This document shows positions 251-29,414 of a stretch of 32,611 bases of DNA, in pieces. A program made the position numbers and the translations under genes. The DNA comes from a virus: IMG/VR virus record IMGVR_UViG_3300037427_002084, positions 1 through 32,611 of that record; one strand, given 5' to 3'. How positions within the stretch are numbered: position 1 is the first letter of the stretch; every line of letters begins with the position of its first letter. The notes beneath the pieces were generated by a model. The model was given only the letters and a program-made list of their open reading frames with translations, had not been told where the DNA came from and ran no database searches.

Positions 251-691
251 TTGAGACTAACCGCGCAAGATTTGCGTGAAATGAATATCCTTAAGTATTA
301 CAGGCTCACTAGAAAGTGGGTCTGTAAAACTTACGGGTTAAAAGACGCAGACTTAGAATTATTAATTTATTTAGATTGTAAAGGAAGATTTACACGAAAC
401 GATTTTATCAACGGAGTTTATACATACTCATGGGATAAAGCAAGATGGGACAGATTAAGAAACGAAGGTTGGATAGATGTATGGAGACATAGAAATAGAA
501 CAACTATAATGTACTCTATATTTAAAACTTCGTGGAAATGTTCTCAAATGATAAGTAGAATTTACAGAATACTTCTAGGTGAGGAAGACATGCCTATATC
601 AGAGAGAAGTGTTTTTTATAAGAATAAATCATATACAGATAAAGTTTACAATAAAGCTATAGATGATATGATAAAAGACAAAGACCGATGA
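251..691 (+). CDS. Winged-helix-like small protein (possible DNA-binding)
   Basis: This encodes 146 residues if a TTG at 251 is the start; an in-frame ATG at 281 (peptide MNILKYYRL) is an equally good choice and gives 136 residues. The segment from DLELLIYLD through WDRLRNEGWIDVW and the Arg-rich stretch RHRNRTTIMYSI looks like a MarR-type winged helix: a helix, a Trp-rich recognition region, then a two-stranded wing. No ligand site or oligomerisation domain is visible. The gene overlaps the next by four bases (ATGA), so the two are likely translationally coupled. A role in transcription control or DNA handling is an inference from fold impression only. The gene itself is secure. Confidence 0.7.
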   Translation: MRLTAQDLREMNILKYYRLTRKWVCKTYGLKDADLELLIYLDCKGRFTRNDFINGVYTYSWDKARWDRLRNEGWIDVWRHRNRTTIMYSIFKTSWKCSQMISRIYRILLGEEDMPISERSVFYKNKSYTDKVYNKAIDDMIKDKDR

Positions 692-1005
692 GAACAAGAA
701 GATACATGCATGGCCGTAGAAGAGCAAAGCGATCTCCCGCTAAATCATGGATTGGGGATTTATGGGGGAAGAAACGGCAAAAGAGAGTTATCGATAGTGA
801 GGACAAAGATCCTACTTCGGCAAATGCAATGACTGCTAAAAGCGAGGCAATGAAAGGTGGAGAGCAAAACAATCACGACACCACGCATTCGCATCCAGCA
901 GCGTCTTTCGAACAAGGGGAAGATGGTGGAGATTCTAAAGCTCTAGAAAAAGAAAGAAATACTGGTCCAGTTGGATCATGGGGACAAAGAACATTTGGAT
1001 GGTAA
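688..1005 (+). CDS. Small basic protein ending in WGQRTFGW
   Basis: A 105-residue protein with no recognised family. The N-terminus is strongly basic (RTRRY, GRRRAKR, SPAKS), a second basic patch follows (GKKRQKR), the middle is acidic and polar with a His-rich bit (HDTTHSHP), and the last eight residues are WGQRTFGW. The same eight residues end the internal-virion-protein candidate at 28623-29414. Both proteins also carry an R-x-[KR]-[KR]-S-P-x-K-S element near the N-terminus (residues 12-20 here, 18-26 there). This protein may therefore be a miniature paralogue that keeps both ends and has a different middle. It overlaps the upstream gene by ATGA and is followed after 10 A/T-rich bases by the metallopeptidase-like gene. 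Confidence 0.7.
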   Translation: MRTRRYMHGRRRAKRSPAKSWIGDLWGKKRQKRVIDSEDKDPTSANAMTAKSEAMKGGEQNNHDTTHSHPAASFEQGEDGGDSKALEKERNTGPVGSWGQRTFGW

Positions 1006-1015
1006 AAATATATAT

Positions 1016-1450
1016 ATGGCATTTAAACTAGGATCAGAAAAAGGAAATTACGCTATAAGCGGTGAGATAAAGACAAAGATGAGATTTGGAAAAGAATCTG
1101 GATCTTCTGATGTTTCTGTACCTGGAACACCTGTTATAAGAAAAGATGATTTACAGCCTGGTGTTTTTGGTGAAGCTAATATGGATGGAACAATATACAT
1201 AAGTGACAAGCTAGGTGCTGGTAGTTATGAAGAGCGCCAAGTTATAATACACGAAATGAGGCACGCAACAGATATAAAGATTGGTAAGTTAACTTACGCT
1301 GATGATCATATTATGTACAATGGCGAGAGATTTGAAAGAGAAGATGTTAATGGGGTTGATTCTATATTGGTTGACGGGAAATGGAAACCAGCGGGGACTG
1401 ATGATTTTCCTTGGGAAGTAGATGCTAACAACGGTGATAATAAAATGTAA
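1016..1450 (+). CDS. HExxH zinc-metallopeptidase-like phage protein
   Basis: A 144-residue protein. I chose ATG 1016 because it follows the preceding stop by a short A/T leader; the frame stays open upstream to 971, but that part overlaps the previous gene. Residues 79-83 are HEMRH inside VIIHEMRHATD, the classic zinc-binding HExxH helix with hydrophobic residues before it. A likely third ligand is Glu134 in PWEVDAN near the C-terminus, or Asp86. The preceding SYEERQ helix is also typical of small zincins. It lies directly upstream of two holin-like genes, so it could be a lysis endopeptidase. Alternatively it could process virion proteins. The substrate cannot be read from sequence. The catalytic motif is clear; the biological role is open. 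Confidence 0.7.
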   Translation: MAFKLGSEKGNYAISGEIKTKMRFGKESGSSDVSVPGTPVIRKDDLQPGVFGEANMDGTIYISDKLGAGSYEERQVIIHEMRHATDIKIGKLTYADDHIMYNGERFEREDVNGVDSILVDGKWKPAGTDDFPWEVDANNGDNKM

Positions 1451-1455
1451 AAAAT

Positions 1456-1677
1456 ATGTGGAGTCTATTTAAAGATAAAAACGAAATAAATGAAAAGAAT
1501 GTGGTGGGATTTGCATCTTTTGTGGTTATGGTATTGTTTGCTATAGCAGATCTAGTAACTAGTTTTATATTCGTAGATGGAGAACTAGTAATTAATGAGG
1601 TGATATATAATTCATTCGTATGGGTAACATTAGGATGTTTTGGTATCAGTTCTTTTGAAAAAGTAAAAAGTAAATAA
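1456..1677 (+). CDS. Small two-helix membrane protein, holin-like
   Basis: A 73-residue protein with a short charged N-terminus (MWSLFKDKNEINEKN), a first membrane segment at about residues 16-39, a loop with acidic residues (VDGEL), a second hydrophobic segment at about 50-66, and a basic tail SFEKVKSK. This size and topology suit a phage holin or antiholin acting in the host inner membrane. The ending resembles that of the other holin candidate at 1920-2306 (SLEKVKK), so the pair may share ancestry in the second membrane helix. It starts 5 nt after the metallopeptidase-like gene and ends 1 nt before the next. Membrane nature is seen in the sequence; the holin role is inferred from size and context. 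Confidence 0.6.
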   Translation: MWSLFKDKNEINEKNVVGFASFVVMVLFAIADLVTSFIFVDGELVINEVIYNSFVWVTLGCFGISSFEKVKSK

Positions 1678-1919: not shown

Positions 1920-2306
1920 ATGTTAGGTAAATTATTTTCAGGAGGAGCAGCAGAGTTAGTTAAAGGCGTGGGAGGGGTAATAGACAACCTACACACATCT
2001 GCTGAAGAAAAACTAGAGGCAGAAAGAAAAATAAAAGAATTAGTTGCTAACTATCAGGTAGAAATGGAAAAGAACATTACTAGTAGATGGGAGGCAGATT
2101 TAAAATCAGACTCTTGGTTAAGCAAAAACGTTAGACCATTAGTATTAATATTTTTAATAGTATGCACCATGCTATTAATATTTATAGACGCAGGTGCATT
2201 AAATTTCGAAGTAAAACCAACGTGGGTTGATTTACTTCAATTAGTATTAATAACTGTGATCGGTGCTTATTTCGGCGGTAGATCACTAGAAAAAGTAAAA
2301 AAATAA
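1920..2306 (+). CDS. Phage holin (3-TM holin superfamily type)
   Basis: A 128-residue protein with a Gly-rich N-terminus, an amphipathic charged helix (about residues 24-52), then W57-x2-D60, SDSWLSKNVRP (63-73), a membrane segment at about 73-89, an aromatic/acidic loop (PTWVDLL) and a second membrane segment at about 107-122 that ends in FGGRSLEKVKK. The W...D...SW...N.RP signature followed by hydrophobic helices is typical of the phage/GTA holin family often annotated as holin_3TM. It would permeabilise the inner membrane at lysis. No canonical endolysin is recognisable next to it, so the metallopeptidase-like gene at 1016 is the nearest candidate partner. Confidence 0.72.
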   Translation: MLGKLFSGGAAELVKGVGGVIDNLHTSAEEKLEAERKIKELVANYQVEMEKNITSRWEADLKSDSWLSKNVRPLVLIFLIVCTMLLIFIDAGALNFEVKPTWVDLLQLVLITVIGAYFGGRSLEKVKK

Positions 2307-2310
2307 AATT

Positions 2311-2886
2311 ATGGGACAAAATTCAACAGAAGTAGCATATGGCTTTGGCCAATTTGGATCTGCTCTTTCACAGTTAGCTGCAAATACAATTACAGCTCCT
2401 GAAGGCCATGTGATTGTTGCTATTCAATTTTTAGACGATACTTCACTTAGTGCTTTAGTAGCTGAAGATTCGAAAGTATTTATGAATACAGCCGCAGCAT
2501 CTCACACTGGTGAATACGTTAGAACGGTAAATCAAGGTGCTTCTACTACAAATAAAATTATATTTGACAGTGAAACCAACGAAGCTGCTGGCGCAAGAGT
2601 TGGCGACTATGTTTATGATAGTACTGGTATTTTACACGGTGTAATTACATTGTTAGATCCAGATGGAAATAACACTAGTGAAATTCAAATAAGTAATAGT
2701 GTCGCTATTACAGATAACGAGATTTTACACTTTTCATCCAAAGCTCTTCCAGTAGGTGGTGGTGGTCAACAATTAGCATCTGCAGATGTGTTTCCAAAGG
2801 GATTAACTATTTATGGTAGATGGACATCAGCTTCATTACAAGCTGACGCAGCTACCGCTGGAATAATATGTTACTTTGGTAAGTAA
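2311..2886 (+). CDS. Probable virion surface/decoration protein with beta-module
   Basis: A 191-residue protein, poor in charge and rich in Ala, Thr, Ser and Gly, with a beta-strand-like alternation throughout. The end (ADVFPKGLTIYGRWTS and a final YFGK) looks like a compact C-terminal beta domain. The middle (about residues 75-145, containing GARVGDYVYDSTGILHGVI and then an ITDNEILHFSS strand) resembles a small beta-module that recurs in several other virion proteins of this window. It is followed by the first LamG-like gene with a one-base overlap (TAATG), so the two are likely co-translated and may share a location on the particle. The virion assignment comes from composition and context. 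Confidence 0.6.
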   Translation: MGQNSTEVAYGFGQFGSALSQLAANTITAPEGHVIVAIQFLDDTSLSALVAEDSKVFMNTAAASHTGEYVRTVNQGASTTNKIIFDSETNEAAGARVGDYVYDSTGILHGVITLLDPDGNNTSEIQISNSVAITDNEILHFSSKALPVGGGGQQLASADVFPKGLTIYGRWTSASLQADAATAGIICYFGK

Positions 2887-3689
2887 TGCTAGGCTTAGCA
2901 TCTTCAGTACATACAACTAACTATATTGGTGGTGTCGCTGAGTTTGTAGAAAACACTAGGTCAATTCAATTAGATGGCGTTGGTGACTATATAAAACATC
3001 CAGTTGCGGATAGTGTATTCGCTAGTACTAATGGCCACACTATATCAGCTTGGGTTAGATATCCGGATCCATATAGTACTAGTTTTGGAATGTTATACGG
3101 CGTTTCAGGTAGTGGTGGTGCTACGTATTTAGGTAATCATGGTTCACAAAAACATTATTTTTGGTTGGGCGCTGCTGGTAGTGCTTCAAATTTAGCTATA
3201 ACAAACAGCTCTTCTGGATTGACAGATGGTGTAGATACAGGTTGGATACATATGGTTACTAGAGTGCAGTTAAACTCTAGTGGTGATCCAGCTAATAACA
3301 CTAATAGATCTTTTTGGATAGATGCGGATTCAAAGAATTCCGGTAATCTAGCGCCAAACATGAATAATTTAGATGACTTTTCCACAAGTAAACAACTTGG
3401 TATAGGGGTTTATAGTTTTAGTACATCTTCTTGGAGCTATATTACAAACCAAGTATATATAGCGGAATTCGCTATATTTGATACGGCTCTAACTGATGGA
3501 GAGATTCAAAAAGTATACGAAGGTGGAGGGGCATTTAATTTATTAAATCCTGATTTCGCCCCATCTGACAATTTAGTAACTTGGTATAGATTCGAGGATG
3601 ACAATACAGATCAAATAACTGATTATTCAGGCAACGATAACCACGGCGAACCGATTGGAGATCCATCTTATCACGCTGACACACCTTAA
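2886..3689 (+). CDS. LamG/concanavalin-like jelly-roll protein, copy 1
   Basis: A 267-residue protein with the hallmarks of a LamG-type (concanavalin A-like) jelly roll: the opening strand SIQLDGVGDYIKHP (about residues 26-39), HTISAWVRY around 51-59, GWIHMVTR in the middle, the AEFAIFDTALTDGEIQKVYEGG strand-helix near 190, and a final LVTWYRFEDD...ITDYSGNDNHG. These domains usually bind carbohydrate or act as adhesion modules, so a receptor-contact or head-decoration role is likely. The start ATG overlaps the stop of the upstream gene (TAATG). The protein begins MLGLASS, like copy 2 at 3947-4732 (MLGLGNS), and the two are evidently paralogues. The bound ligand is unknown. Confidence 0.75.
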   Translation: MLGLASSVHTTNYIGGVAEFVENTRSIQLDGVGDYIKHPVADSVFASTNGHTISAWVRYPDPYSTSFGMLYGVSGSGGATYLGNHGSQKHYFWLGAAGSASNLAITNSSSGLTDGVDTGWIHMVTRVQLNSSGDPANNTNRSFWIDADSKNSGNLAPNMNNLDDFSTSKQLGIGVYSFSTSSWSYITNQVYIAEFAIFDTALTDGEIQKVYEGGGAFNLLNPDFAPSDNLVTWYRFEDDNTDQITDYSGNDNHGEPIGDPSYHADTP

Positions 3690-3698
3690 TAAAGCAAA

Positions 3699-3947
3699 AT
3701 GGCATATAATAACAACAAGTATATAGTAATGAACGTTTCTGAAGTTGACGAAAGTATTGATTTTTCTCAATTAAACACTAAAGGTGTTGATAGCGCTAGG
3801 AAAAACAACGACGGAACTAAGATAGTATTAAGATCCCCAGCTGAAGTCCCTTCTTTTTTAAATGGTAAAACAGTTTATTCACACGAAGAAATGATAAACA
3901 AGTTGAAAGAAAGTGAGTGGATTGAACCAGACCCACTAGGTATATAA
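3699..3947 (+). CDS. Hypothetical 82-aa protein between the LamG paralogues
   Basis: An 82-residue soluble protein, opening MAYNNNKYIVMNVSEVDE and ending ESEWIEPDPLGI. It has a short N-terminal beta-like segment, a basic central part (SARKNNDGTKIVLRSP), and a helix rich in Glu and Lys (SHEEMINKLKESEW). No family is recognised. It sits between the two LamG-like genes and overlaps the second by one base, an arrangement suggesting stoichiometric expression with copy 2. In similar phages such small proteins next to decoration genes are often minor structural proteins, but nothing in the sequence shows that here. Confidence 0.55.
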   Translation: MAYNNNKYIVMNVSEVDESIDFSQLNTKGVDSARKNNDGTKIVLRSPAEVPSFLNGKTVYSHEEMINKLKESEWIEPDPLGI

Positions 3948-4732
3948 TGTTAGGTTTAGGTAATAGCTTGATGACTCCTACCGTAAGCTCTGGGCTTGGT
4001 AAACGTGGTTCACTAATTTTTGATGGTGTGGGTGATTATATGACCGTGGGCGGTAGTAATAGTATTTTTAATGATACGTTTACAATAACATGGAGGATAA
4101 TGTTTGATGACTCTAATATAACAAACCATCAAATTAGTGGCCAAGCAAACGCAACCGCTCAAGACATGACTTACCTGGGTTTTCTTAGTGGAACACATTT
4201 TTATGGGTGGCATAAATCAAATAATTATCTAAATAATATGAACGGTGGTACGATGTGGACTGAGAACGCGGGTACTCCCACTCCTTGGATAACTATCGGT
4301 ATGTCATTTGACTGTACTGGTGGTGGTAGTAATGCAACAGGTCGTTTTTTCTGTGAATTACCAAGTAAAGAATCACACACGGCGTTCACTTCCATGCCAA
4401 TAACTAATGTTAACGCTTTTGATAGTCCGCATGCTTTTGGGATTGGGGTATGGATAAATAGCGGTGGTAGCGCGCAGTGGATTCACGAGGGAGGTGCGAT
4501 TGCTGACGTGGCGATATATAAGGGGTATGCTTTTACTCTCGCTGATTTTCAGGAAATATTTGATAGCCCAGAGAAAGATTATAGGACTCTTTCTCACGCC
4601 GCGTATCTAACTTCTTATTTTCCATTTGGTGAAGCTGGAATGCAAGATGTAATAGGTGGTTTATCTCCAGAACCAGGAGGAGTAACATATGGTGGTGATC
4701 CAACGGTTTCTATGGTACACCCAAGTGATTAA
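3947..4732 (+). CDS. LamG/concanavalin-like jelly-roll protein, copy 2
   Basis: A 261-residue protein, paralogous to the product of 2886-3689. The recognisable pieces occur in the same order: MLGLGNS start, SLIFDGVGDYMTVGG (about residues 22-36), a TITWRIMFDD strand, PWITIGMSFDC, SPHAFGIGVW, IADVAIYKGYAFTLADFQEIF and a closing YLTSYFPFGE strand. The terminal part lacks the NDNHG-type ending of copy 1. It is likely another carbohydrate-binding or adhesive virion protein. The start codon overlaps the previous stop (TAATG). Divergence between the copies is considerable, so this is an old duplication or two separate acquisitions of the same family. Confidence 0.72.
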   Translation: MLGLGNSLMTPTVSSGLGKRGSLIFDGVGDYMTVGGSNSIFNDTFTITWRIMFDDSNITNHQISGQANATAQDMTYLGFLSGTHFYGWHKSNNYLNNMNGGTMWTENAGTPTPWITIGMSFDCTGGGSNATGRFFCELPSKESHTAFTSMPITNVNAFDSPHAFGIGVWINSGGSAQWIHEGGAIADVAIYKGYAFTLADFQEIFDSPEKDYRTLSHAAYLTSYFPFGEAGMQDVIGGLSPEPGGVTYGGDPTVSMVHPSD

Positions 4733-5055: not shown

Positions 5056-5251
5056 TATAGGTAAAGATTATAAGAACGATGCAATGCACTATGCTGTTGG
5101 TCAAGAGGTATATGGTGGGCATACGATTTGTGATATAATAGAAGAAGAGGATAAATTCTCTGTTTATATTAAGAAGAATAAAGATGTTTTACCATGGAAA
5201 GACTTTAATAAGAATATGGCTGTATCTGTAGAGTATAATCTAGAATACTAA
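5030..5251 (+). CDS. Hypothetical 73-aa protein
   Basis: A 73-residue protein starting MAKLIRKISIGKDYKNDAMH inside the end of the previous gene (26-nt overlap) and ending one base into the next (TAATG). Its pattern of short beta strands (YAVGQEVYGGHTICDIIEEEDKFSVYIKK) suggests a small beta barrel. VGQEVYGGHTICDI is the most distinctive stretch. No catalytic or metal site is visible. The tight overlaps at both ends argue that the gene is real despite its size. I do not recognise its function. Confidence 0.6.
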   Translation: MAKLIRKISIGKDYKNDAMHYAVGQEVYGGHTICDIIEEEDKFSVYIKKNKDVLPWKDFNKNMAVSVEYNLEY

Positions 5252-5832
5252 TGAAAAGCGTTTACAACTTTGTTGTAAAACCAAAAGGAGAAAGATATAA
5301 TAACACTAAAAAACTAGATGGAGGTGATTTGATTATCAATACAGAGATCTCTAACCATCAATATGTTAATAGAGAAGCCGAGATTATATCAACTCCTATG
5401 ATTGGTGATACAGATATACAACCGGGAGATACAGTTGTATTACATCATAATGTTTTTCGTAGATGGCACAACCAATATGGTATCGAGAAAAATAGTAGAA
5501 GTTATTTCAATGAATCTACTTATTTTATAAACCACGATCAAATCTTTTTATACAAAAGAGATGATAAGTGGGTAGCTCCAAAGGGTTATTGTTTTGTAAA
5601 ACCTTTGAAAGCAATAGATCAATTTAATGTTGAATCTGAAAAACCACTTCAAGGTATTGTCAAATATTCTGATGGTACAGTTGAAGTTAATGATCTAATT
5701 GGTTTTAGACCAAGTAGTGAATACGAGTTTATCGTCGATGGCGAAAGACTATATCGAGTTTTATCTAATTTTATTACAATCAAATATGAATATCAAGGAA
5801 ACGAAGAAGAATATAATCCAAGCTGGGCATAA
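5251..5832 (+). CDS. GroES-like co-chaperonin protein with two tandem GroES folds
   Basis: A 193-residue protein, about twice the length of GroES. The N-terminal half (about residues 5-102) follows the GroES strand order: NFVVKPKGERY, a polar loop then KKLDGGDLII (compare the GroES mobile loop followed by GGIVL), a NREAEIISTP strand, IQPGDTVVLHH (compare VKVGDIVIFND), and a closing YFINHDQIFLYKR (compare the ESDILAIVE end). The C-terminal half (about 110-187) repeats the theme: GYCFVKPLK, PLQGIVKYSDG, VNDLIGFRPSSEYEF and IVDGERLYRVLSNFITI. Phage GroES analogues such as T4 gp31 help the host GroEL fold the capsid protein, a plausible role here just upstream of the head genes. The first half carries an insertion around RRWHNQYGIEKNSRS. 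Assignment is by eye. Confidence 0.6.
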   Translation: MKSVYNFVVKPKGERYNNTKKLDGGDLIINTEISNHQYVNREAEIISTPMIGDTDIQPGDTVVLHHNVFRRWHNQYGIEKNSRSYFNESTYFINHDQIFLYKRDDKWVAPKGYCFVKPLKAIDQFNVESEKPLQGIVKYSDGTVEVNDLIGFRPSSEYEFIVDGERLYRVLSNFITIKYEYQGNEEEYNPSWA

Positions 5833-16640: not shown

Positions 16641-19600
16641 ATGCCTGATATTAAACACCAGTTTTCTAGTGGGAAAATGAACAAAGATCTCGATGAGAGA
16701 ATTGTTCCAAATGGAGAATATAGAGACGCTATGAATATACAAGTGTCAACGTCAGAAGGATCTCACGTTGGTACTGCGCAAAATATACTTGGTAATATCG
16801 TTCACCACTCGTCGACTTTCCAAATGCCTGCCGACCCAGTTGTAGTCGGTGTTATTGGAGATGAGAAGAATGATTTTGTATATTGGTTTGTTTACGGTTC
16901 TAACGCTGATTGTATATTAAGAAAGAGCACTAATAATAAAGCGGTAACCGCTGTCTTCGTAGACTTACACGGTCATTCTAGTAGATCGTCTTCCAAAAGA
17001 GTGTTAGGTTTTGGGGATGAAGGTTCTATAGTTTATAGTTCTGATCAATACATGAGACAGATAACTGGAATAAACATTATAGATGATTTACTTTTCTGGA
17101 CTGATAATTATGGCGAACCTAAAAAAATAAACATATCAAAGAGTATCGCTGGTACTGTTCAAGCGGGTACTTCCCATACTAAACTAATGAATGACGACAC
17201 TGGTAATGTCGGGACTACTGATGTTGAAGAAAAGCATATCTGTGTTATACGAAGAGGTCCTTCGAATCCATTAAACTTAGAATTCAACACAATAAAAGGT
17301 AGGGATGAAGATAAATCATACGGAGGTATTATTAAGATTACTGATAACCCAGGAACCTTAGCTAATACCTCTTCTCTTTTTGTTCCAGCTGGAGTTTACC
17401 CAGCCCCACCCTTAAACGATAATTATGATTTTTCATCCTATTCTGTTGGTGAGATAATATATACAACTGTAAATACTGATTTAGATGGTAATCCTGACTT
17501 CACTTTAGAATGGGAAGTTGGGGATGTAGTGGTATTAAAAGAGTACGATGATGATGGGGTTGCTCCAACCACACCGCTACGTGACTACCGTATAAAAGGT
17601 AAAATAGTGGACTTTAATAACCCTGTTACTAATGTAAGTGGGGCTAGTTCTTTTACACAAGATACCTCAGCTGTAGGGTTTGGTGTTAGTGCTTCTAACT
17701 TTCTTAATTGGGGTATTGGTAGAGTTATTGTTGCTATAGAAATACAATCTATAAACGGTTATCCACCAACTGCTATAGGTGGGTTTGGTGCTGGTAGTTT
17801 GGATTACGTTGTAGATTTATTTGATGATGAAACAAAGTTGTTTGAATTTAAATTTCCTAGATTTTCTTATAGATACAAATATGAAGATGGTGAGTATTCT
17901 ATTTTTGCTCCTTGGTCCGAAATAGCCTTTTTACCTAGTTCTTATGATAATCACCCTCAGAAAGGTTATAACCTAGGTATGACTAATAAGATACAAGATA
18001 TATTACTAGAGGGATTAGTACCTTTAGATATACCTTTAGATGTGGTTGAGATCGACATATTGTATAAGGAAGATACATCAACAAATGTATATGTTGTTGA
18101 AACTATAAGTCCTAAAGACACCCCAACTGGACCAGGTTTGCTTAATATTTGGCAGATAGGTTCTTATTATCTAACATCTGAAACTATAAAATCTTTAGTT
18201 CCCTCTAATCAATTATTGAGAACTTGGGATAATGTACCTAGAAGAGCTCTTGGCCAAGAGATAACAGGTAATAGAGTTGTTTATGCTAATTACTTACAGC
18301 AATTCAATTTAAGAGAAGGTAGTCCCTATGACAACACTCTTCCTTACTGGCAACCTAAATTTGAAATTAGTGTTGAACAAGTTCCAAATGCGTTACCTTC
18401 ACCTATAAAAACTATAAAATCATTAAGAGAGTATCAATTGGGAGTTGTTTTTGTTGATGCGTACGGTAGAGAAACACCTGTGTTATCTAACAATACTGGC
18501 TCTATAAAACTAGACAAATCATACGCTCTTACAGGTAATAAGCTTAGTGTTTCATTCGCTAACACAACTGGACCTGAAAACATGTCTTATTTCAAGTTCT
18601 ACGTAAAAGAGACATCAGGAGAATACTATAACATGGCTATGGATAGATTCTATGATGCCGCTGATGGTAATGTTTGGTTAGCTTTTCCTTCTTCTGATAG
18701 AAACAAGATAGATATAGATACCTTCTTGATACTTAAAAAGGGTACTGGTCCAGACACTGTGGTAAACGAACCTGCTAGATATAAAGTTTTAGCTATAGAG
18801 AACGAGGCTCCAGATTTTGTTAAAACAACAAAATTATTAATATCAACAAAAACACATACTACCTCTGGGTCGGGAGCTATAGATATATTTGGAAACTCAA
18901 TGATCGATGCTCCTGAAACTGGCAATTTTAAATTTAAGGTTAAATACGAACCTTTTTACTCGGACAGTGGTGGTGATTTACATAAGTTAATACAACCTGG
19001 AGTTGAATTATGGGTTGACTTTAAATTATCAGCTGAAGATGAGATTTCTAATAGATATAGAATAACTAGCGTTAAGTGTGATTTTGAAGTTGGTGGACCA
19101 GTTTCTATGTCAGACTCTTATTACTATATAACAATTGATGGTTTATTTAATGATGATATAAACTTTATAACAGATGATCCAACTGGTGCTGCTTCTACAA
19201 AAATCATTGAAACCGCTCAAATAAGATTTTGGAAATACGCTGTTGAGAATAGACCTCAATTTGACGGTAGATTCTTTGTTAAAATATATAACGACGGTAT
19301 ATTTAAACAGTATGTAACAAAAGATTTTGATAATGCCAGTGCTAATGATTATAGAATATTGTCTAGAAAAGAAGTATACTTTTTAGATGAATCACTACAC
19401 GAACCTGATTTTGCTGGTGGTAGTGTACAAATATGGAACGCTACTTTAGATAAGCCTCAAGGTCAAGCCCCTCACTATGCTACTGGTATCCCAACTTATC
19501 ATGGTACTAGTAATTCTACTTATTTTACAGCTCTTGGAGATGGTGAAATGTTTCAATATGAAGATTATTACACCACAACCTCTAACCCCTGGAGTTCCGC

Positions 19601-22600
19601 ATACGCTGCTACTGTTCAAGCGGCTGGAGCAATGGATCCAACACGAGATGGTGGAAAACCATCTAAAGGTTGGTGGAGAAAATCACAGTTTTGGGCTTGG
19701 TTTGTAGATTACGCTTGGAGTACTGCTGGTTGTAATTTACAATCAAATTCGCTAACGCTTGGGAGTAATCTTGGTGCTGATTTAGATCAATATGGTGTAG
19801 CTGGTCACTTCCATTCTTCCGATAATTTCGAATGGTTGGCAGCTGATCCAATATTAGGTGTTGCTGCTAATAAACCAGATAAAAAACATGAGGTTTGGTT
19901 TATAGATAATGGTAAGTGGAGAGGTAGACACACAGAAGCAGATAAAGTTGGAACAACAACCACGGGTTTTAATACTAGTAGTCAACCTAATGGCGGTTGG
20001 ACTGCTGGTGGAATTGAAAATTACCATGACACAGAATACAGTAAGATAAACCTTTCTTTTGGTCCTATATGGTCAGAGGATCCTCTTAACAATGATGATC
20101 ACTTTAATATTAGTGAGGGTTCACCAAACTATCCACACCAAGCTGATTTTGTTGGTAAAATGAAACCAGGAGCACAATTTAGATGGAAGGAAGACCCAAA
20201 CCAAACAGTTTATACTGTGGGTGCTAACGTTAGAGAATGGAACATCTCTAGATACACATCTCCAATAGGAGATCCCGATTTAGGTGGTGTCGCTAGGAAT
20301 GAATCTAGTGATCTTTACCCGGCAAATTTCAATAAATATTACTATTTAAAAGTTACACCAAATATGGGTAGTGTTTGGGATCCTACTAGCAACACGTTAG
20401 GACCAATAATTGGAGGTCACAATATAACCTTACCAATATCATCTGGTGGTGGAAGTATGACAAGTGGAGTTAATGCTGTTGATGATGTTTGGATAATGAT
20501 GGATTCTATTGTTGGTGTTGACGTTGATAATGGTAGTATTGAAGCACAACTTAGACAGGGTATGATAGTAGAGAGTTACGTTAACGGAGGTGTAACTATA
20601 AACATGCCCGAGGTACCGTCTGTAGTTAATAGTCAAATGGTTGGTCAATACCTCTGTATCTCCGAAATAGAATACGTTGCAAGTCTTCAAAAATATAAAG
20701 TATATTTAGTTGGTTATAAATGGCCTTTAAAAACAGGTGATATACCTGGTAATGGAGCGGGTGCTTTACCTAATGGCTTTGAATCAGGGGCTAATGTAAA
20801 ATTTAGACAGGCTTCTATGAATATGGTTTCACCTACCTACTGTGATAACTTTGAGAAAATGCAAGCAAACCAATCTCAAAACTACGGTGGTGTTGGTGTT
20901 GTACACCAAAGAAATACGTTATTTCCAGTTGGTTATACTCTTGAGTGGATTGAACCTGTAGATAGAGAAGAAGTTATGCCTGATTTCCCAGCGGTTTGGG
21001 AAACAGAACCTAAAGAGCAGCCTGAATTAGATATTTATTACGAGGTTGCTGGTTTACACCCTTTAAGAACAGATAGTGCGAATGTTGGTAGAATCGGGTC
21101 AACGGCTATTCAAACAGCTATTCCTTATGCATCCACAATAACATCTACGCATGCTTATTTACCAGGCGTATATAGCGTCTTGGATATTGTATTAACAGAA
21201 ACTAATGGTAACTGGATAGTTCTCGATGGGTTAACCACGAGTGCAAATGTTAATGGCGTAGTAACTGGGGAGAGTTTAATGGCTTTTTGGCCATTAGTTA
21301 GTCTATATGTTACTAAACCAGATGAAACTGAATTTGGCCCAATAAGTATAGAGCATATAATTGACGCTAACTATTTAAACCCGGGTACATATACAACTCC
21401 AAACGTATATCACGCTGTTAAGATTAACGAATCATTATTTGATGAGACAAACTTAGCTTTTAAAGGGGATGTTTCTAGAAAGATGAATTGGAAGTTACCA
21501 TACTTCAACGCTTATTCTTTTGGTAACGGCGTTGAATCAAATAGAATTAGAGACAACTTTAACTTACCTTATATATTAAACGGTGTTAAAGCTTCAACTA
21601 CTTTAGCTGAGCAATACAAAGAGGAAAGAAGAGAAACTGGGTTAATATACTCTGGTATATATAATTCGGTAACTGGTATAAATAATTTAAACCAATTTAT
21701 TCAAGCTGAAAAAATTACAAAAGATTTAAACCCAACATATGGATCAATACAAAAGCTGTTTTCACGAGACACTGATTTAGTTACATTTTGTGAAGACAAG
21801 GTGTTAAAAGTATTGGCAAATAAAGATGCTGTTTATAATGCTGATGGAAATCCTCAGTTAATAGCAACTCCAAATGTATTAGGCCAAACAATACCTTTTT
21901 CTGGAGATTATGGTATATCTAGAAATCCAGAATCATTTGCGTCAGAATCTTATAGGGCTTATTTTACAGATAAACAAAGAGGCGCTGTATTAAGATTATC
22001 ACAAGACGGTTTAACACCAATATCTGATTACGGTATGAAAGATTGGTTTAAAGATGCTTTAAATGTGAGATCAGGTGATTCTCTAAGTGTTTATGGTATT
22101 AATCAGAATCAAGGTGAACCTCCCGTGAATATAATAGGAAATTATGACACTAGAAATAACGAGTATAATTTAAAATTTGGATTTACAGGAGACGAAGCAA
22201 GTGGAGGCTTGACGAAAGTTCAAAAAGTAGTCTCGTTTAAAGAGGAGAATAAAGGATGGGTTAGTTTTAAATCCTTTGTGGATATGGAAAATGGAATAAG
22301 TGTTTCTGATAAATACTTTACTTTTAAAGAAGGTAAAGCTTATTTCCACAACTCTCACGATGTTGATAGAAACACTTTTTATGGTAGATATGAAAATTCA
22401 TCTATAACAGTTCTTCTAAATGACGATCCTGGTGTGGTTAAAACATTTAACACTTTGAATTATGAGGGTTCACAAACAAAAGTAGATAGGTTTGTAGAGT
22501 ATGTTGATTCTTTAGGTTTTACTCATACGGATAGAGATTATTACAATTTAGCAGATATTGATGGTTGGTGGGTTACAAATATACATACAGACATGCAAGA

Positions 22601-25600
22601 TGGAGGCGTGCCTGAATTTATAAATAAGGAAAACAAATGGTTTAACTTCATAACAGGTATTGATGATCCAAATAACAATATGGATGGTCTTGATGAAAGT
22701 GAATTCTCTTTCCAAGGGTTAGGTACTGTTGCTAGTTTTACTGTAGCCGCTATAGTGCCTGGGTGTATGGATCCTTTATATGTCCAGTACAATCCAGCTG
22801 CAACTATTGATGATGGTTCTTGTTTAACATTAGTGGTTTTAGGTTGTATGAATGCTAGTGCTACTAACTATAATGCTTTAGCAAATGTTGATGATGGTAG
22901 TTGTCAAATAGTTGGTTGCACATGGACTGGAGCCTTTAACTACCAACCACCACCGGTTAATGTACCTTGTCAAGATAGTAGTGGTACACCTAATGGTACG
23001 GGTATGGATGCTAATGGTAATTGGGAGTGTTGCGAACCTATTCTTATTGGCTGTATGAACGCTAATATAATTAACACTCCCGCTGCTTCTCCAGATGTAT
23101 TTGGAAATTGCGCACCACCTGATGAAAACATTGTGGGTGATCCAAACTGGCCTAGTGCTGCTAGTTTAGGTGCTTGTTACAGTATTTCTGGTGGGCCTTA
23201 TAGTGGTTATGATGTTTTCAATTTCAATCCATTCGCTAACACAGCTAGCGCTTGTGCCCCACTACCTGGTGGATGTACTGATTCTAACGCTAGTAACTAT
23301 GGAGGTTGCACTCTGTGCGTTGATGATGGATCATGTCTATATGAAGGATGTACAGATGCTACAGCTTTAAACTACAACGCTTTGTGGGACACAGATGATG
23401 GGTCTTGTTGTTATGATGGTGGATGTACTGATTCTGATTCTTCAAATTACGATCCCGGCGCTTGTTGGGATGATGGTTCTTGTATTCCTTGCGTATATGG
23501 ATGTATGGATATTAATGATGGTAACTATGACCCACTAGCAACGTGTCATGATTGCGCTAACTATTGCGCTGGTGTTTGTGGTTGTAACGATCCTAACGCT
23601 GCGAATTACGATGCTAGCGCTACGTCTAATGATGGTAGTTGTATTTACGATGGATGTTTAGATCCAACAGCGGCCAACGCATTAACATTAAACGGTGTTA
23701 TTATAAACTGTACTGATATTGATGCTAGTTATGCTGGTCCCGCGAATTATATAGGTCAAATAAGTCAAACCTGCGGACCAATACCTGACGCTTGGGCTGT
23801 GATGCCTGGCGTAGGAGGTTCTATAATGGATGGTGTTTATGGCGGTAATCCGCAAGTAATGTATAACACGTGTTTATATGTAATACCTGGATGTACAGAT
23901 GTTACAATGTTTAATTATGATAATCAAGCGACTGTAGATGATGGATCTTGCTACCCTGTTATTACTGGGTGTATGGATCCTACAGCAGTTAACTTTGTTT
24001 CTATTACAGGAGATCCACAAGTTGATATAAATACTTCGGATCCTACCGCTTGTTGTTACACGGGTGGTTGTACAAACCCAATGGGTACTAATTATGATCC
24101 AAACGCTTGTTATGATGATGGTAGTTGCATAGTGCCCGTGCTCGGTTGTATGGATACTACAACTGGATATTTTAATACCGCTGGTCCAAGTGGTGTTAGT
24201 GGTTATGATTCATTAGGCCCAACCCTTGGTTATCCTAGCACTAATCTATGTGATGACCCTACTTATGCGACTGATCAATTTGGATTAAATCTCTGGAACA
24301 ATGATGGTTGTATGGATCCTGGAACAGTAAATCCAATTGGTTTCGCTGCTACAAACTACAACCCATTAGCAACTGCTAACGGAGGTTGTACTTACCATCA
24401 AGGGTGTATGGATCCTAGTGCTTATAACTATGATATAACAGCTTATTACCCAGCTTCTACACCAAGTACCGAAGGATGTATGGATACTAACGCTAGTAAT
24501 TATGATGCCAACGTCACAACTGATAATGGATCTTGTTGCTTCCCTATAATAGAAGGTTGTTTATACGAAAATTATACAAATTTAAATGGGGATTCTTTTG
24601 AGAACTATAATTATGGATCTGGTTCTTTAGGTAACCCATATAATGTTCAAGGTTGGAGTCAATTTAGAGTTACAGCATTAACAAACCCTGGGTTAACAGG
24701 TAGTGTAGGTTACGATGTAAATACTCACGATCAAAACATGTGTATATTAAAAGATGGTACTGCGACTACACATACTACTAACACTAATGGCTCGTCCCCA
24801 TTGTTTGGTGAGAGAAACCCTGCTGGTTGTACTGACAACACTGGTCAAGACGCTTACACTAGAGATTATTGGTATGATTACCACGCGGGTCTTACAACAT
24901 TACCAGGAACATCGACTAATTATGGTGGTGGAACAGCTAGTGGTCCTTTCAACTGGAGTCATGTTGGTGATCGCGTTATAACTATTCAAACATACCATGG
25001 TAGTGCTATAACCTCTTCTCACACACACCCATTTAACTGGAATGAAAACTGGACAGAGTTTGCTGCGAATGGTACGTATCCAACAGATACAGATTTTTAT
25101 GAAGCCGACGCTCTTGTTGGTGGTGTCGCTAACTCTACCAATTGGATCGCTGATGGACAGGGTAATATTGAGGCTCCATCTGGAGCCCCTTGGATTGGAC
25201 AATGGGATCCAAGTGTTACCAATGCTTGTTGTAGAAAAGCTGGATGTTTACATCCTTACGCTTTAAATTTTGATGCAAAAGGATACAAGCGTAATCCAAG
25301 TTCACCTATGGATCCTATATATGTTGGCGTTGGTGTTCAAAGAAGAAACCCATCAACAGGGCAAGTACACATAATGGAAAAAGCTGACCAAGACAACCCA
25401 GGTAGCGTAAACAATCCTTATGACCAACTTGGACCGGTCACAGCTAATGCTGGTATAAACTTTGACGAAGGTGGGCAAGCATGTGTAACGTGTACTGGTT
25501 CAACTGGCGAGGTAAGTGGTTATACACCTGGTGGTACAACTGGTGAGCCTGGTGAGCGTTTCCAAAGATGGTTTAACAATGGTTATGATGATAATGGAAA

Positions 25601-26132
25601 TTATACTGGAGATTTTAGCCCTAAAAACAGATGTGGCTCTTCTGGTAACGAAATATGGGAAATGGCCTCTGATACTGGTCTAACAGCTGCTCAAGCAGCT
25701 ATAACATCTGGTTGTGCGAGTTGGAGGTTAGACGATCCAGAATGGAGAGATTGCTGCGTATTCCCTATGGAATACAGTGGGCATCATCGATATGATGCAA
25801 ACTCCATGAACGGTCCTTGTTGGAATGGAAATAGCACAACAAATATGGTTCCAAGTTGGATTGCTCCTAATCAACAGAATAACTTCTGTAGGAATAATGG
25901 TAATTCACCTGATTATCCTGATGTTATGTTTGGTGGGTGTACAAACCCAGGTGCTTGTCCAGTGCCTTATTCAACCCATCCTCAATCTGGATATCAGCAA
26001 GGTAAAATGCCGTATAGACAAGCCGCTATGTGGGATGATGGTAGTTGTTGTTATTCTATCCCCGTAAACCAAGGTGGTACTGGTAACTGTAACCCTTGTA
26101 AGGGTATATTCCAAGGAAAAATTAACCTTTAA
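16641..26132 (+). CDS. Giant tail nozzle protein with C-terminal Cys-repeat arm
   Basis: A 3163-residue protein, the largest in the window. The N-terminus (HQFSSGKMNKDLDERIVPNG, followed by YRDAMNIQV and GTAQNILGN, residues 7-50) is the signature of phage tail stabilisation/nozzle proteins. Further tail-tip signatures lie at about 1754-1804 (GDYGISRNPESFASESYRAY, then FTDKQRGAVLRLS) and at the GWVSFKSF segment. From about residue 2041 to the end the protein changes to around 20 degenerate Cys repeats (GC[MT]D..A.NY...A..DDGSC), broken by several longer insertions. The first part would seal and extend the portal channel. The last part would be an extracellular arm, probably disulphide-braced and perhaps calcium-binding. 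No signal peptide, as expected for a virion protein. The next gene overlaps its stop (TAATG). Confidence 0.8.
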   Translation: MPDIKHQFSSGKMNKDLDERIVPNGEYRDAMNIQVSTSEGSHVGTAQNILGNIVHHSSTFQMPADPVVVGVIGDEKNDFVYWFVYGSNADCILRKSTNNKAVTAVFVDLHGHSSRSSSKRVLGFGDEGSIVYSSDQYMRQITGINIIDDLLFWTDNYGEPKKINISKSIAGTVQAGTSHTKLMNDDTGNVGTTDVEEKHICVIRRGPSNPLNLEFNTIKGRDEDKSYGGIIKITDNPGTLANTSSLFVPAGVYPAPPLNDNYDFSSYSVGEIIYTTVNTDLDGNPDFTLEWEVGDVVVLKEYDDDGVAPTTPLRDYRIKGKIVDFNNPVTNVSGASSFTQDTSAVGFGVSASNFLNWGIGRVIVAIEIQSINGYPPTAIGGFGAGSLDYVVDLFDDETKLFEFKFPRFSYRYKYEDGEYSIFAPWSEIAFLPSSYDNHPQKGYNLGMTNKIQDILLEGLVPLDIPLDVVEIDILYKEDTSTNVYVVETISPKDTPTGPGLLNIWQIGSYYLTSETIKSLVPSNQLLRTWDNVPRRALGQEITGNRVVYANYLQQFNLREGSPYDNTLPYWQPKFEISVEQVPNALPSPIKTIKSLREYQLGVVFVDAYGRETPVLSNNTGSIKLDKSYALTGNKLSVSFANTTGPENMSYFKFYVKETSGEYYNMAMDRFYDAADGNVWLAFPSSDRNKIDIDTFLILKKGTGPDTVVNEPARYKVLAIENEAPDFVKTTKLLISTKTHTTSGSGAIDIFGNSMIDAPETGNFKFKVKYEPFYSDSGGDLHKLIQPGVELWVDFKLSAEDEISNRYRITSVKCDFEVGGPVSMSDSYYYITIDGLFNDDINFITDDPTGAASTKIIETAQIRFWKYAVENRPQFDGRFFVKIYNDGIFKQYVTKDFDNASANDYRILSRKEVYFLDESLHEPDFAGGSVQIWNATLDKPQGQAPHYATGIPTYHGTSNSTYFTALGDGEMFQYEDYYTTTSNPWSSAYAATVQAAGAMDPTRDGGKPSKGWWRKSQFWAWFVDYAWSTAGCNLQSNSLTLGSNLGADLDQYGVAGHFHSSDNFEWLAADPILGVAANKPDKKHEVWFIDNGKWRGRHTEADKVGTTTTGFNTSSQPNGGWTAGGIENYHDTEYSKINLSFGPIWSEDPLNNDDHFNISEGSPNYPHQADFVGKMKPGAQFRWKEDPNQTVYTVGANVREWNISRYTSPIGDPDLGGVARNESSDLYPANFNKYYYLKVTPNMGSVWDPTSNTLGPIIGGHNITLPISSGGGSMTSGVNAVDDVWIMMDSIVGVDVDNGSIEAQLRQGMIVESYVNGGVTINMPEVPSVVNSQMVGQYLCISEIEYVASLQKYKVYLVGYKWPLKTGDIPGNGAGALPNGFESGANVKFRQASMNMVSPTYCDNFEKMQANQSQNYGGVGVVHQRNTLFPVGYTLEWIEPVDREEVMPDFPAVWETEPKEQPELDIYYEVAGLHPLRTDSANVGRIGSTAIQTAIPYASTITSTHAYLPGVYSVLDIVLTETNGNWIVLDGLTTSANVNGVVTGESLMAFWPLVSLYVTKPDETEFGPISIEHIIDANYLNPGTYTTPNVYHAVKINESLFDETNLAFKGDVSRKMNWKLPYFNAYSFGNGVESNRIRDNFNLPYILNGVKASTTLAEQYKEERRETGLIYSGIYNSVTGINNLNQFIQAEKITKDLNPTYGSIQKLFSRDTDLVTFCEDKVLKVLANKDAVYNADGNPQLIATPNVLGQTIPFSGDYGISRNPESFASESYRAYFTDKQRGAVLRLSQDGLTPISDYGMKDWFKDALNVRSGDSLSVYGINQNQGEPPVNIIGNYDTRNNEYNLKFGFTGDEASGGLTKVQKVVSFKEENKGWVSFKSFVDMENGISVSDKYFTFKEGKAYFHNSHDVDRNTFYGRYENSSITVLLNDDPGVVKTFNTLNYEGSQTKVDRFVEYVDSLGFTHTDRDYYNLADIDGWWVTNIHTDMQDGGVPEFINKENKWFNFITGIDDPNNNMDGLDESEFSFQGLGTVASFTVAAIVPGCMDPLYVQYNPAATIDDGSCLTLVVLGCMNASATNYNALANVDDGSCQIVGCTWTGAFNYQPPPVNVPCQDSSGTPNGTGMDANGNWECCEPILIGCMNANIINTPAASPDVFGNCAPPDENIVGDPNWPSAASLGACYSISGGPYSGYDVFNFNPFANTASACAPLPGGCTDSNASNYGGCTLCVDDGSCLYEGCTDATALNYNALWDTDDGSCCYDGGCTDSDSSNYDPGACWDDGSCIPCVYGCMDINDGNYDPLATCHDCANYCAGVCGCNDPNAANYDASATSNDGSCIYDGCLDPTAANALTLNGVIINCTDIDASYAGPANYIGQISQTCGPIPDAWAVMPGVGGSIMDGVYGGNPQVMYNTCLYVIPGCTDVTMFNYDNQATVDDGSCYPVITGCMDPTAVNFVSITGDPQVDINTSDPTACCYTGGCTNPMGTNYDPNACYDDGSCIVPVLGCMDTTTGYFNTAGPSGVSGYDSLGPTLGYPSTNLCDDPTYATDQFGLNLWNNDGCMDPGTVNPIGFAATNYNPLATANGGCTYHQGCMDPSAYNYDITAYYPASTPSTEGCMDTNASNYDANVTTDNGSCCFPIIEGCLYENYTNLNGDSFENYNYGSGSLGNPYNVQGWSQFRVTALTNPGLTGSVGYDVNTHDQNMCILKDGTATTHTTNTNGSSPLFGERNPAGCTDNTGQDAYTRDYWYDYHAGLTTLPGTSTNYGGGTASGPFNWSHVGDRVITIQTYHGSAITSSHTHPFNWNENWTEFAANGTYPTDTDFYEADALVGGVANSTNWIADGQGNIEAPSGAPWIGQWDPSVTNACCRKAGCLHPYALNFDAKGYKRNPSSPMDPIYVGVGVQRRNPSTGQVHIMEKADQDNPGSVNNPYDQLGPVTANAGINFDEGGQACVTCTGSTGEVSGYTPGGTTGEPGERFQRWFNNGYDDNGNYTGDFSPKNRCGSSGNEIWEMASDTGLTAAQAAITSGCASWRLDDPEWRDCCVFPMEYSGHHRYDANSMNGPCWNGNSTTNMVPSWIAPNQQNNFCRNNGNSPDYPDVMFGGCTNPGACPVPYSTHPQSGYQQGKMPYRQAAMWDDGSCCYSIPVNQGGTGNCNPCKGIFQGKINL
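22761..26053 (+). repeat. Cys-rich repeat array, about 20 units, in the giant tail protein
   Basis: Each unit is close to 20 residues and starts GC[MTN]D, has [AS]xNY in the middle and ends DDGSC or a variant. Good units start at 22761, 22843, 23338, 23414, 23576, 23889, 24066 and 24474; others have decayed or carry insertions. The DNA is also alike: GGKTGTATGGATCC-type starts at 22761, 23967, 24306 and 24402, and GATGATGGTTCTTGT-type ends, which point to expansion by duplication or recombination. The same kind of repeat is known from flavobacterial secreted and surface proteins. Confidence 0.85.
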
Positions 26133-26527
26133 TGAAACTATATACTAGTGATAAAATTGAAGTTAGGAAATCTAATATACATGGTTTTGGTGTTTTTGCA
26201 AAAACCGATATAAACATAGGTGAGGTTTTAGAAGAGTGTAATTATGTTAAGCTTTCCGGATGGAGCGGAGAAGATATAGAAGCTTACCAATTCTCTTGGC
26301 CAACAAGTCCAGATGAATTTAAGTACAACACTATACCTTTTGGATTCGCGTGTGTGTATAATTCAGCAGACTCAAGAGACACTCGAAATACAAGTTGGTA
26401 TTGTGATGAAGAAAGAGATGTTTATGTGTTTAAAACAACGAGAAACGTTTCAGCTGATACAGAACTCTTAACTTTTTATGGTGACGTATATGTTAAGTTA
26501 ATAGGTAATAATTTTAAAAAAATATAA
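26132..26527 (+). CDS. Stand-alone SET-domain protein
   Basis: A 131-residue minimal SET domain. The opening signature SNIHGFGVFAKTDINIGEVL (residues 14-33) matches the S-adenosylmethionine-binding start of SET proteins. FGFACVYNSADS (70-81) takes the place of the usual NHSC-type motif, and TRNVSADTELLTFYGD (103-118) matches the closing GEEL-x-x-x-Y motif, with Tyr116 as the candidate catalytic tyrosine. SET proteins methylate lysines in proteins. The target here is unknown; it could be a virion protein or a host protein. The gene overlaps the giant tail gene by one base (TAATG) and is followed at once by another virion gene, so it is expressed late with structural genes. The NHSC motif is altered, so activity is not assured. 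Confidence 0.75.
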   Translation: MKLYTSDKIEVRKSNIHGFGVFAKTDINIGEVLEECNYVKLSGWSGEDIEAYQFSWPTSPDEFKYNTIPFGFACVYNSADSRDTRNTSWYCDEERDVYVFKTTRNVSADTELLTFYGDVYVKLIGNNFKKI

Positions 26528-28622: not shown

Positions 28623-29414
28623 ATGAAAATAAATAAACCAACACCTTTTAGATATAGCGTTAATCCCATTAAAAGAACTAGGAAATCACCGCTTAAATCT
28701 AAAGCATTTGACACGATGATGGATGATTTCTCAGCAATGGGGAAAAATTTAGGAGCGATTGATGTAGGTAAAGCATCGTTAATATCTGCTCCAGATGCAA
28801 AAGACCAGAAGTTTAAAAATATGTTTGCTGACGCTTCAAACGCTTATTCAAACATGGATACTCAGAATTTTGCAGAAGATCTTACTGTGAACCAAGGACA
28901 GGCGCAATTTGAAAAAGAAATGGGAATGCAGCAAGAAGCGAACATGTTAGACGCTATGAGGAGTGGTGGAGGTTTTAACGCTGGTAATATTCAAGCTATG
29001 GCAAACGCTGGTTCTCAAAGAAGACAAGCCGCATCAGCTTCTATTGGCCAGCAAGAAGCAGCTAATCAATCAGCTAAAGTCGCTGGTGCGCAAGACGTGC
29101 AAAGAAGAAGAGAAATGCAGATGGGAGGCCAAGCAGAGGCTGAGAGAATGCAGATGCAAGGCGCCGCTGATACTCAAGCTGCTAAAGCTGCTTCTGGAAT
29201 GCAACAAGCTCAAATGGCACTAACAGCATCTCAAGCAAATCAACAATCCAAGCAAGCACATCAAGCATTATCTTACCAAGCTGCTAATGATGCTAGAAAT
29301 ACACAATTACAACACCAACAAGGTATGATGCAGTTGCAATCTGGAAAAGACGCTGCTGACGCCGCGAATAAAGAAGCTGAGAAAAATTGGGGCCAAAGAA
29401 CTTTTGGTTGGTAA
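28623..29414 (+). CDS. Internal virion (ejection) protein candidate, gp14-like position; ends WGQRTFGW
   Basis: A 263-residue, Ala/Gln/Met-rich, almost wholly helical protein. After a basic start (IKRTRKSPLKSK, residues 16-27) come long helices (EKEMGMQQEANMLDAMRSGG, then QRRQAASASIGQQEAANQSA, later QMALTASQANQQSKQAHQAL) ending in EAEKNWGQRTFGW. The composition matches small internal virion proteins such as T7 gp14. The order small, medium, large over this and the next two genes matches T7 gp14-gp15-gp16. It would be ejected into the host envelope with the DNA. Its last eight residues are identical to those of the basic 105-aa protein near the window start, and the N-terminal basic SPxKS element is shared too. 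Confidence 0.65.
   Translation: MKINKPTPFRYSVNPIKRTRKSPLKSKAFDTMMDDFSAMGKNLGAIDVGKASLISAPDAKDQKFKNMFADASNAYSNMDTQNFAEDLTVNQGQAQFEKEMGMQQEANMLDAMRSGGGFNAGNIQAMANAGSQRRQAASASIGQQEAANQSAKVAGAQDVQRRREMQMGGQAEAERMQMQGAADTQAAKAASGMQQAQMALTASQANQQSKQAHQALSYQAANDARNTQLQHQQGMMQLQSGKDAADAANKEAEKNWGQRTFGW

Follow-up and report, generated by a model that had tools for sequence, protein, structure and literature searches.

The open reading frame at positions 1016–1450 of the window (the whole stretch of viral DNA analysed, a 32.6-kb record of 32,611 nucleotides) is a genuine gene and not a chance reading frame. Its product, P0001, is very probably a small zinc-dependent protease (a zincin). It starts with a clade-specific tag that also opens unrelated small proteins of the late region. 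We tentatively favour the reading that the zincin is a tagged cargo protease, which would enter the particle together with the other tagged proteins, be delivered along with them and cut a host protein early in infection. Computed observations were the conservation of catalytic residues, a zincin-like model, tag sharing beyond chance, restriction of the strict form of the tag to one clade among the contigs tested and a separate endolysin gene in relatives. The zincin is probably not the enzyme that lyses the cell. The features of the window are listed in Table 1.

Table 1. Positions of the zincin gene, its motifs and selected neighbours in the window
Feature	Position	Strand	Remarks
cl3, conserved 146-aa protein, syntenic anchor	251..691	+	Upstream of the zincin gene
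Basic 105-aa protein	688..1005	+	Between cl3 and zincin; RSPAKS near the N-terminus, C-terminal WGQRTFGW
Zincin gene (P0001, 144 aa)	1016..1450	+	ATG start; homologues, alignment, dN/dS, model
N-terminal tag MAFKLG, residues 1–6	1016..1033	+	Heads a stretch (1–31) disordered in the model; F3 and K4 conserved
HEMRH motif, H79–H83, predicted zinc binding and catalysis	1250..1264	+	70/70 close homologues
PWE motif, containing the predicted third zinc ligand E134	1409..1417	+	Invariant in 70/70
73-aa protein, hydrophobic by eye	1456..1677	+	Relatives abut the zincin gene in many loci
Holin-family protein	1920..2306	+	PHROG 3427 'holin', E 1.8e-29
cl18, putative internal virion protein	28623..29414	+	N-terminal KSPLKS, C-terminal WGQRTFGW; no PHROG match

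The initial annotation had proposed a small zincin whose third ligand would be Glu134. The two motifs on which it was based are present in the gene, as H79-E80-M-R-H83-A-T-D86 in VIIHEMRHATD and as E134 in FPWEVDAN. A scan of IMG/VR with P0001 gave 413 pattern-matched stretches, 410 of which encode a relative, and the best 80 were retained. H79, E80, H83, D86, P132, W133 and E134 were each found in 70 of 70 distinct aligned sequences (window included), and the invariant E134 and the zincin-like model uphold the proposal. The median dN/dS was 0.23 across 1902 pairs, which are not independent (NG86 script, dS 0.1–1.2). A scan of cellular genome contigs gave one relative, on a contig binned as Sphingobacteriales. 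P0001 would be a single-domain gluzincin-type zinc protease, in which His79, His83 and Glu134 hold the zinc and Glu80 activates water.

A wider set of 204 loci, screened for ORFs of 90 codons or more at E ≤1e-4, yielded 150 distinct homologues. HExxH was intact in 148, and P-x-E was found in 146 of 148, with EWE in the other two. Divergent homologues from contigs with the strict form of the tag (see below) retained HExxH together with PWE (or PHE, HWE, EWE). The remaining two of the 150, L154 (about 5077–5511) and L167 (about 2529–2945), carry EExxH: the first zinc-binding histidine is replaced by glutamate, and the rest is intact. Judged by sequence, these two are possible pseudoenzymes, so the activity may be dispensable in some phages. 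The zincin is very probably active in most members of the family.

Among 48 diverse homologues, 90% or more kept the tag residues F3 and K4, and a [FY][KR][LMI] tag stood at the start or within 12 residues of it in all 150 distinct homologues. The pattern M-x(0-3)-[FY][KR][LMI] was read from the first ATG in 139 of them and from a later ATG in 6. It followed a GTG start in L056 and L144, and it was located at residues 9–12 in L131, L141 and L214. Divergent proteins start with MAFKM, MAFKL, MGYKM, MAFRM and similar; residues 7 to about 35 lose similarity in them, and the tag is still kept.

The same tag, in the fuller form MAFKMKGSP..SPxK, opens unrelated small late-region proteins of the clade. 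Among 372 proteins from seven contigs, zincins excluded, 11 carried the tag, whereas shuffling gave 0.14 on average and never more than 2 in 2000 rounds; two of the seven contigs (G002 and G003) overlap in content. A pattern search gave 161 tagged ORFs. After removal of recognised zincins, 154 were left (a few divergent zincins and chance matches among them), with a median length of 115.5 aa and a median net charge of +9. At least 100 aa were encoded by 101 of the 161, and SPxK was found at residues 7–45 in 44 of these and at residues 61–99 in 6. The tagged proteins fall into recurring sub-types (QRNFGIG, KLGTIQGTSGHxSALK and FKLRSGN..FKMMGSSPVK); examples of tagged small basic proteins are L082:8437–9219, L095:632–901 and L276:19067–19516. 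As in a T4-type system, one leader is common to a protease and several unrelated proteins.

An exact DNA search of IMG/VR for starts of the form MAFKMKG-[S/T-like]-P (the strict tag) gave 44 stretches. Three repeats of contigs and seven contigs of 6.5–14.3 kb were left out. The remaining 34 contigs all had the terminase of the clade, with 71–92% identity, and the strict tag was restricted to one phage clade among them. The zincin was found in 32 of the 34. The other two fall short of the zincin slot by position: the sequence of G054 opens with the terminase, and that of G035 stops 1.8 kb upstream of the terminase. Within the literature searched (titles and the opening parts of abstracts, with most subscription papers outside the search), neither the tag nor the string MAFKMKG was found.

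The zincin is common in the clade but dispensable, that is, accessory: in 80 loci anchored on cl3, it was present in 70 and absent from 9 of 79 that could be evaluated, each of the nine with more than 3 kb of downstream sequence. The last locus was cut off, and its contig has a zincin. Of the 70 cl3 loci with a zincin, 35 had tagged genes, as did 2 of the 9 without one (Fisher P 0.16; some of the genes counted as tagged, a few in number, are divergent zincins). Tagged proteins occupied the slot directly after cl3 in two zincin-less loci, and three incomplete contigs (G030, G032 and G033) had tagged genes and no zincin. A strict linkage of tag and zincin was dropped on account of this cl3-anchored test and these three contigs. 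Two further contigs, G026 (62.5 kb) and the short G029, had neither tag nor zincin.

The tag may be explained as a clade-specific targeting signal, common to a changing set of small basic late-region proteins. Most likely it would send the zincin and the other tagged proteins to one place during assembly, most plausibly to the inside of the particle, as cargo. The zincin would then be delivered with the DNA and would cleave a host protein early in infection. What calls for an explanation is the shared tag, and a cargo role of this kind would account for most of the data.

It is on the doubtful side that the zincin is instead a maturation protease, co-assembled by means of its own tag and trimming the tagged proteins, as a zinc-protease analogue of the T4 system. 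The protease does bear the tag of its putative substrates, the zincin is present in every tested strict-tag contig that reaches its slot, and no prohead-protease gene was seen by eye between portal and major capsid genes in seven contigs. The window protein encoded between portal and major capsid had no PHROG match at E 0.01. Against a maturation role stand the lack of a significant difference between zincin-positive and zincin-negative loci and the three zincin-less contigs that keep tagged genes, although these contigs are incomplete. The latter argue against an obligatory tag-processing protease. We prefer an effector to a maturation enzyme on two grounds: the zincin is dispensable, and in the incomplete contigs seen, tagged genes remain where it is absent. 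A more specific version appears unlikely: an uncultured clade near flavobacterial podophages with a cargo system of its own, in which the tag (M-x-F-K-[ML]-K-G ... S-P-x-K) would bring a rapidly changing set of small basic proteins into the virion and the tagged zincin would be the maturation enzyme, a metalloprotease counterpart to the leader system of T4 with its serine protease.

A link of the zincin to the virion is made more plausible by the shared N-terminal tag. By gene order, cl18 would stand in the ejection-protein position, and genes with a structural annotation are found at the corresponding place in Calle_3. The N-termini of cl18 were of the SP[LIA]K type in the window, G011 and G002/G003, but not in G004. 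One of four scanned cl18 proteins matched a virion structural protein (PHROG 13764, E 5.8e-05), and the other three matched no PHROG. In the window, cl18 and the unrelated 105-aa protein share the C-terminus WGQRTFGW and an N-terminal [RK]SPxKS patch. WGQRTFGW was rejected as a general C-terminal tag: it was found in only these two window proteins and, loosely, in one protein of G011.

There are precedents elsewhere. According to PMC5512222, no domain is commoner in the polyvalent proteins of phages and conjugative elements than the zincin-like metallopeptidase, for which processing or effector roles are proposed. PMC7824862 describes SprT-like or ArdC-like zincins of some jumbo phages, with host proteins as their presumed targets, and suggests a part in maturation for one uncharacterised zincin. 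In crAss001, cargo proteins are stored in capsid and tail (PMC10172136).

AlphaFold models were built from 29 close and 48 diverse sequences, with a mean pLDDT of 76.2 and 74.6, respectively. In the second model, pLDDT was below 50 for residues 1–31, and the core was confident over most of residues 32–140. E134 was located within a predicted helix (132–137), and the long stretch from HExxH to this glutamate contained beta-strands. The initial annotation had suggested a structure search for zincin relatives, and its outcome was mixed. The top-ranked PDB alignments were indeed zincins, at Z 4.5–6.6: 6cyy (Z 6.6, rmsd 5.0, 87 aligned), 6mdx (Z 5.7, rmsd 4.3, 83 aligned), PprI 8sln (Z 5.2, rmsd 4.0, 85 aligned) and abylysin 4jiu (Z 4.5, rmsd 3.2, 73 aligned), with selecase also among the top rows. 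All Z values were below 8, however, and a Foldseek search of the PDB with the first model gave nothing below E 0.9, the best rows being non-zincins. The family names of the top PDB entries (IrrE/PprI, abylysin and so on) are our attributions: we take 6cyy, a transcriptional regulator of M. tuberculosis, to be IrrE-like, and 6mdx is presumably a SprT-domain protease. Unrelated PDB rows (PIH1, GAR domains) scored Z 3.4–4.0. A profile search of PDB sequences gave no meaningful match for the zincin. Five matches with E ≤0.001 came from a library of viral models (E 1.3e-06 to 7.6e-04); a phage SprT-like protein and the pT24 protein were among them. At these modest Z values in the PDB, the model appears similar to proteases of the IrrE/PprI, SprT-like and minigluzincin kinds.

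The zincin matches to Pfam (E ≤1) among 29 members were all sub-threshold, with M90 in 15, M91 in 9 and eCIS core in 9. P0001 had no match at E 5 to PF06114 (M78, ImmA/IrrE) or to PF10263 (SprT-like); the best family member scanned reached 13.0 bits for PF06114 (cut-off 22), and L230 reached 13.4 bits for PF10263 (cut-off 25.6). PHROGs 16532 and 10499 were matched by P0001 at E 0.1 and 0.24 only, and by the best divergent member at E 5.3e-11 and 4.6e-09. Three of five scanned members matched these PHROGs (E 5.3e-11 to 7.2e-04), and the other two matched neither.

The SprT-like relatives, by fold and by sub-threshold sequence matches, would suit a protease that is not packaged: an effector or housekeeping enzyme, made late and acting on host or phage proteins in the infected cell, for example in the removal of DNA–protein crosslinks. 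The tag would then serve some other localisation. Comparable stand-alone zincins without a tag are found in T4-like and jumbo phages. This explanation seems quite unlikely, as it does not account for the tag on unrelated late proteins or for the retention of the tag while adjoining residues diverge.

The terminase of the window has its kin in phages of Flavobacterium, Cellulophaga and Tenacibaculum (31–44% identity among the matches listed) and also of Maribacter. It is related as well to that of MW202828, a genome from Manatee Spring (64% identity). No match to the zincin was found in five complete related records (MW202828, elemoA_7-9A, phi13:2, Gundel_1 and Calle_3). According to PMC8776804, the Maribacter phage Molly encodes a zinc metallopeptidase of 199 aa that has a lipoprotein domain.

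The gene order was cl3, zincin, holin and then terminase, portal and capsid, with small variable genes between, both in the window and in six long contigs from its close clade. Neighbour distances were measured in 159 loci; some of these lie on the same contig, and 80 had been collected by searching with the zincin. Both cl3 and zincin were found in 141, with cl3 at most 2 kb upstream and, in 58, abutting (stop then start). Both zincin and holin were found in 142, with the holin at most 1.4 kb downstream. In most of the loci, the zincin gene stood after cl3 and before the holin. A membrane protein of the 73-aa type began within 50 bases of the zincin end in 82 of 84.

Other genes of the window were observed in passing. 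The product of 16641–26132 is a 3163-aa protein with repeated cysteine motifs of the GCMDPxAxNYxxxAxxDDGSC type in its C-terminal part. A 131-aa protein (26132–26527) has a SET domain (PF00856, E 8.2e-07, above cut-off), which is unexpected in a phage. The products of 2886–3689 and 3947–4732 belong to the same cluster and flank an 82-aa ORF; the former matches Laminin_G_3 (PF13385), and the latter has no Pfam family match.

The proximity of cl3 raises the question of a protease that cleaves a regulator. In the ImmA/ImmR and IrrE/DdrO systems, a protease cleaves its paired regulator, and the zincin might cut the cl3 product in the same manner. The cl3 homologue of MW202828 lies within a CDS annotated 'repressor protein', and the fold neighbours of the zincin include the IrrE/PprI type; cl3 itself had no Pfam family match. 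We consider this improbable. In the nine zincin-less loci, cl3 persisted at 87–94% identity; where both are present, cl3 and the zincin are often separated by further small genes; and P0001 lacks a Pfam M78 match.

The initial annotation had suggested that the protein may be a lysis enzyme of a new type, or else a protease for virion-protein maturation, noting that two holin-like genes follow and that no endolysin was seen nearby. Two membrane-type genes do follow. Family support was obtained for 1920–2306, for which GTA_holin_3TM was also slightly below the cut-off (22.5 versus 24.8 bits), but not for 1456–1677, which had no significant PHROG or Pfam match. The window had no match to the M15 endolysin of its relatives, and no lysis enzyme was found among the window proteins scanned (part of the ORFs). 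This may reflect truncation, because the window has 32.6 kb and related contigs reach 67–72 kb.

A recognisable endolysin was found in relatives that carry the zincin. Peptidase_M15_3 (PF08291) was matched in G004, G007 and G011 (E 7e-15, 9.3e-15 and 1.6e-13) at 43, 48 and 40 kb after the zincin, and the G007 protein matched PHROG 894 'endolysin' (E 5.6e-29). A search of 21 records, the window included, gave the M15 gene in 13 of 20 longer relatives, one of them a partial weak match (G055, E 1e-7), and all 13 had a zincin. In 12 of these 13, M15 followed the zincin at a distance of 34–48 kb; in G069, the order was reversed, with 20 kb between them. It was missed in the window and in G003, G059, G026, G041, G063, G070 and G072. 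G003 ends ahead of the M15 region. G059 is near-complete, since the terminase spans both contig ends; it carries the zincin together with a gene, located about where M15 lies in the others, that matches PHROG 33083 'endolysin' (E 7.7e-13) and has its best match in PHROG 3000, of unknown function. G026 has neither zincin nor M15, and it has a DUF5675 gene in the late region. MW202828 has a homologous M15 gene (43% identity, E 1.9e-34), near its terminase; in the present clade, M15 and the terminase lie far apart. The end of the late region was thus occupied by M15 in G004, G007, G011 and G002, by the PHROG 33083 type in G059 and by DUF5675 in G026. The lysis enzyme in the relatives seen is apparently a separate, exchangeable gene.

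Judged in these relatives, the zincin is not the sole muralytic candidate of the genome. The initial annotation had named a canonical endolysin elsewhere in the genome, together with unprocessed virion proteins in a mutant, as counter-evidence. The sequence half of this was found, though in relatives and not in the part of the genome that the window lacks. A lysis enzyme or accessory, acting as a hydrolase of peptidoglycan or envelope proteins with the neighbouring holin, was therefore lowered to highly improbable, though the adjacency of the holin and the membrane-type gene is genuine. The holin was kept in all nine zincin-less loci. P0001 matched no lysis or peptidoglycan-hydrolase family (PHROG, Pfam), and the only cell-wall-related row among 29 members was PF17890 at E 0.15. 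The idea that the zincin replaces an endolysin beside the holin was dropped; the neighbouring 113-aa protein of MW202828 had no match to the holin cluster.

Some observations also weigh against the cargo protease that we favour. The packaging of the tagged proteins is something we infer, and the five complete related records have no zincin. The position between cl3 and the holin would fit lysis or regulation as well. By eye, the SPxK half of the tag is mostly absent from the zincin. Most of the scanned cl18 proteins lack a PHROG match, and the fold support is modest, with non-zincin rows not far below the zincins in Z.

If the tag is a packaging signal, sequence alone would mark proteins that are delivered into hosts, and these would be candidates for takeover or counter-defence. 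The shared tag gives a handle on the role of unexplained small late proteins. The nearest phage zincin families, PHROGs 10499 and 16532, carry no assigned function.

These two families were matched by Melnitz gp69, p413 of Ochrobactrum phage OC (annotated ImmA/IrrE) and gp172 of Tenacibaculum phage pT24. Like the present protein, they are small stand-alone phage zincins with HExxH followed by P-W-E-x-E-A, and they align through both motifs. Unlike it, they have no MAFKM-type tag and are found in other genomic contexts. The SprT-like and M78 IrrE/PprI proteases appear similar in predicted fold and ligand arrangement; the differences are the beta-strands between HExxH and the glutamate and the lack of a Pfam match above cut-off. 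The Peptidase_M15_3 endolysin of the same phages is also a metallopeptidase-family gene of the same late region, but it belongs to an unrelated family and coexists with the zincin as a separate gene.

T4 has internal proteins with a capsid targeting sequence and the protease gp21, a serine protease. As with the T4 internal proteins, a changing set of small late proteins has a common N-terminal leader and a protease among them, here seen in sequence only. The protease differs from gp21 in being a predicted metalloprotease, and the leader is a different one. The zincins of polyvalent proteins (PMC5512222) likewise have a glutamate ligand on a later helix; they are found in delivered phage proteins of phages and plasmids, and cargo processing or a role as injected effector has been proposed for them. 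One phage-type clade among them has an aspartate three residues past HExxH, comparable to D86 here. They are domains of multidomain proteins, whereas the present zincin is a solo domain of ~100 aa behind a short tag.
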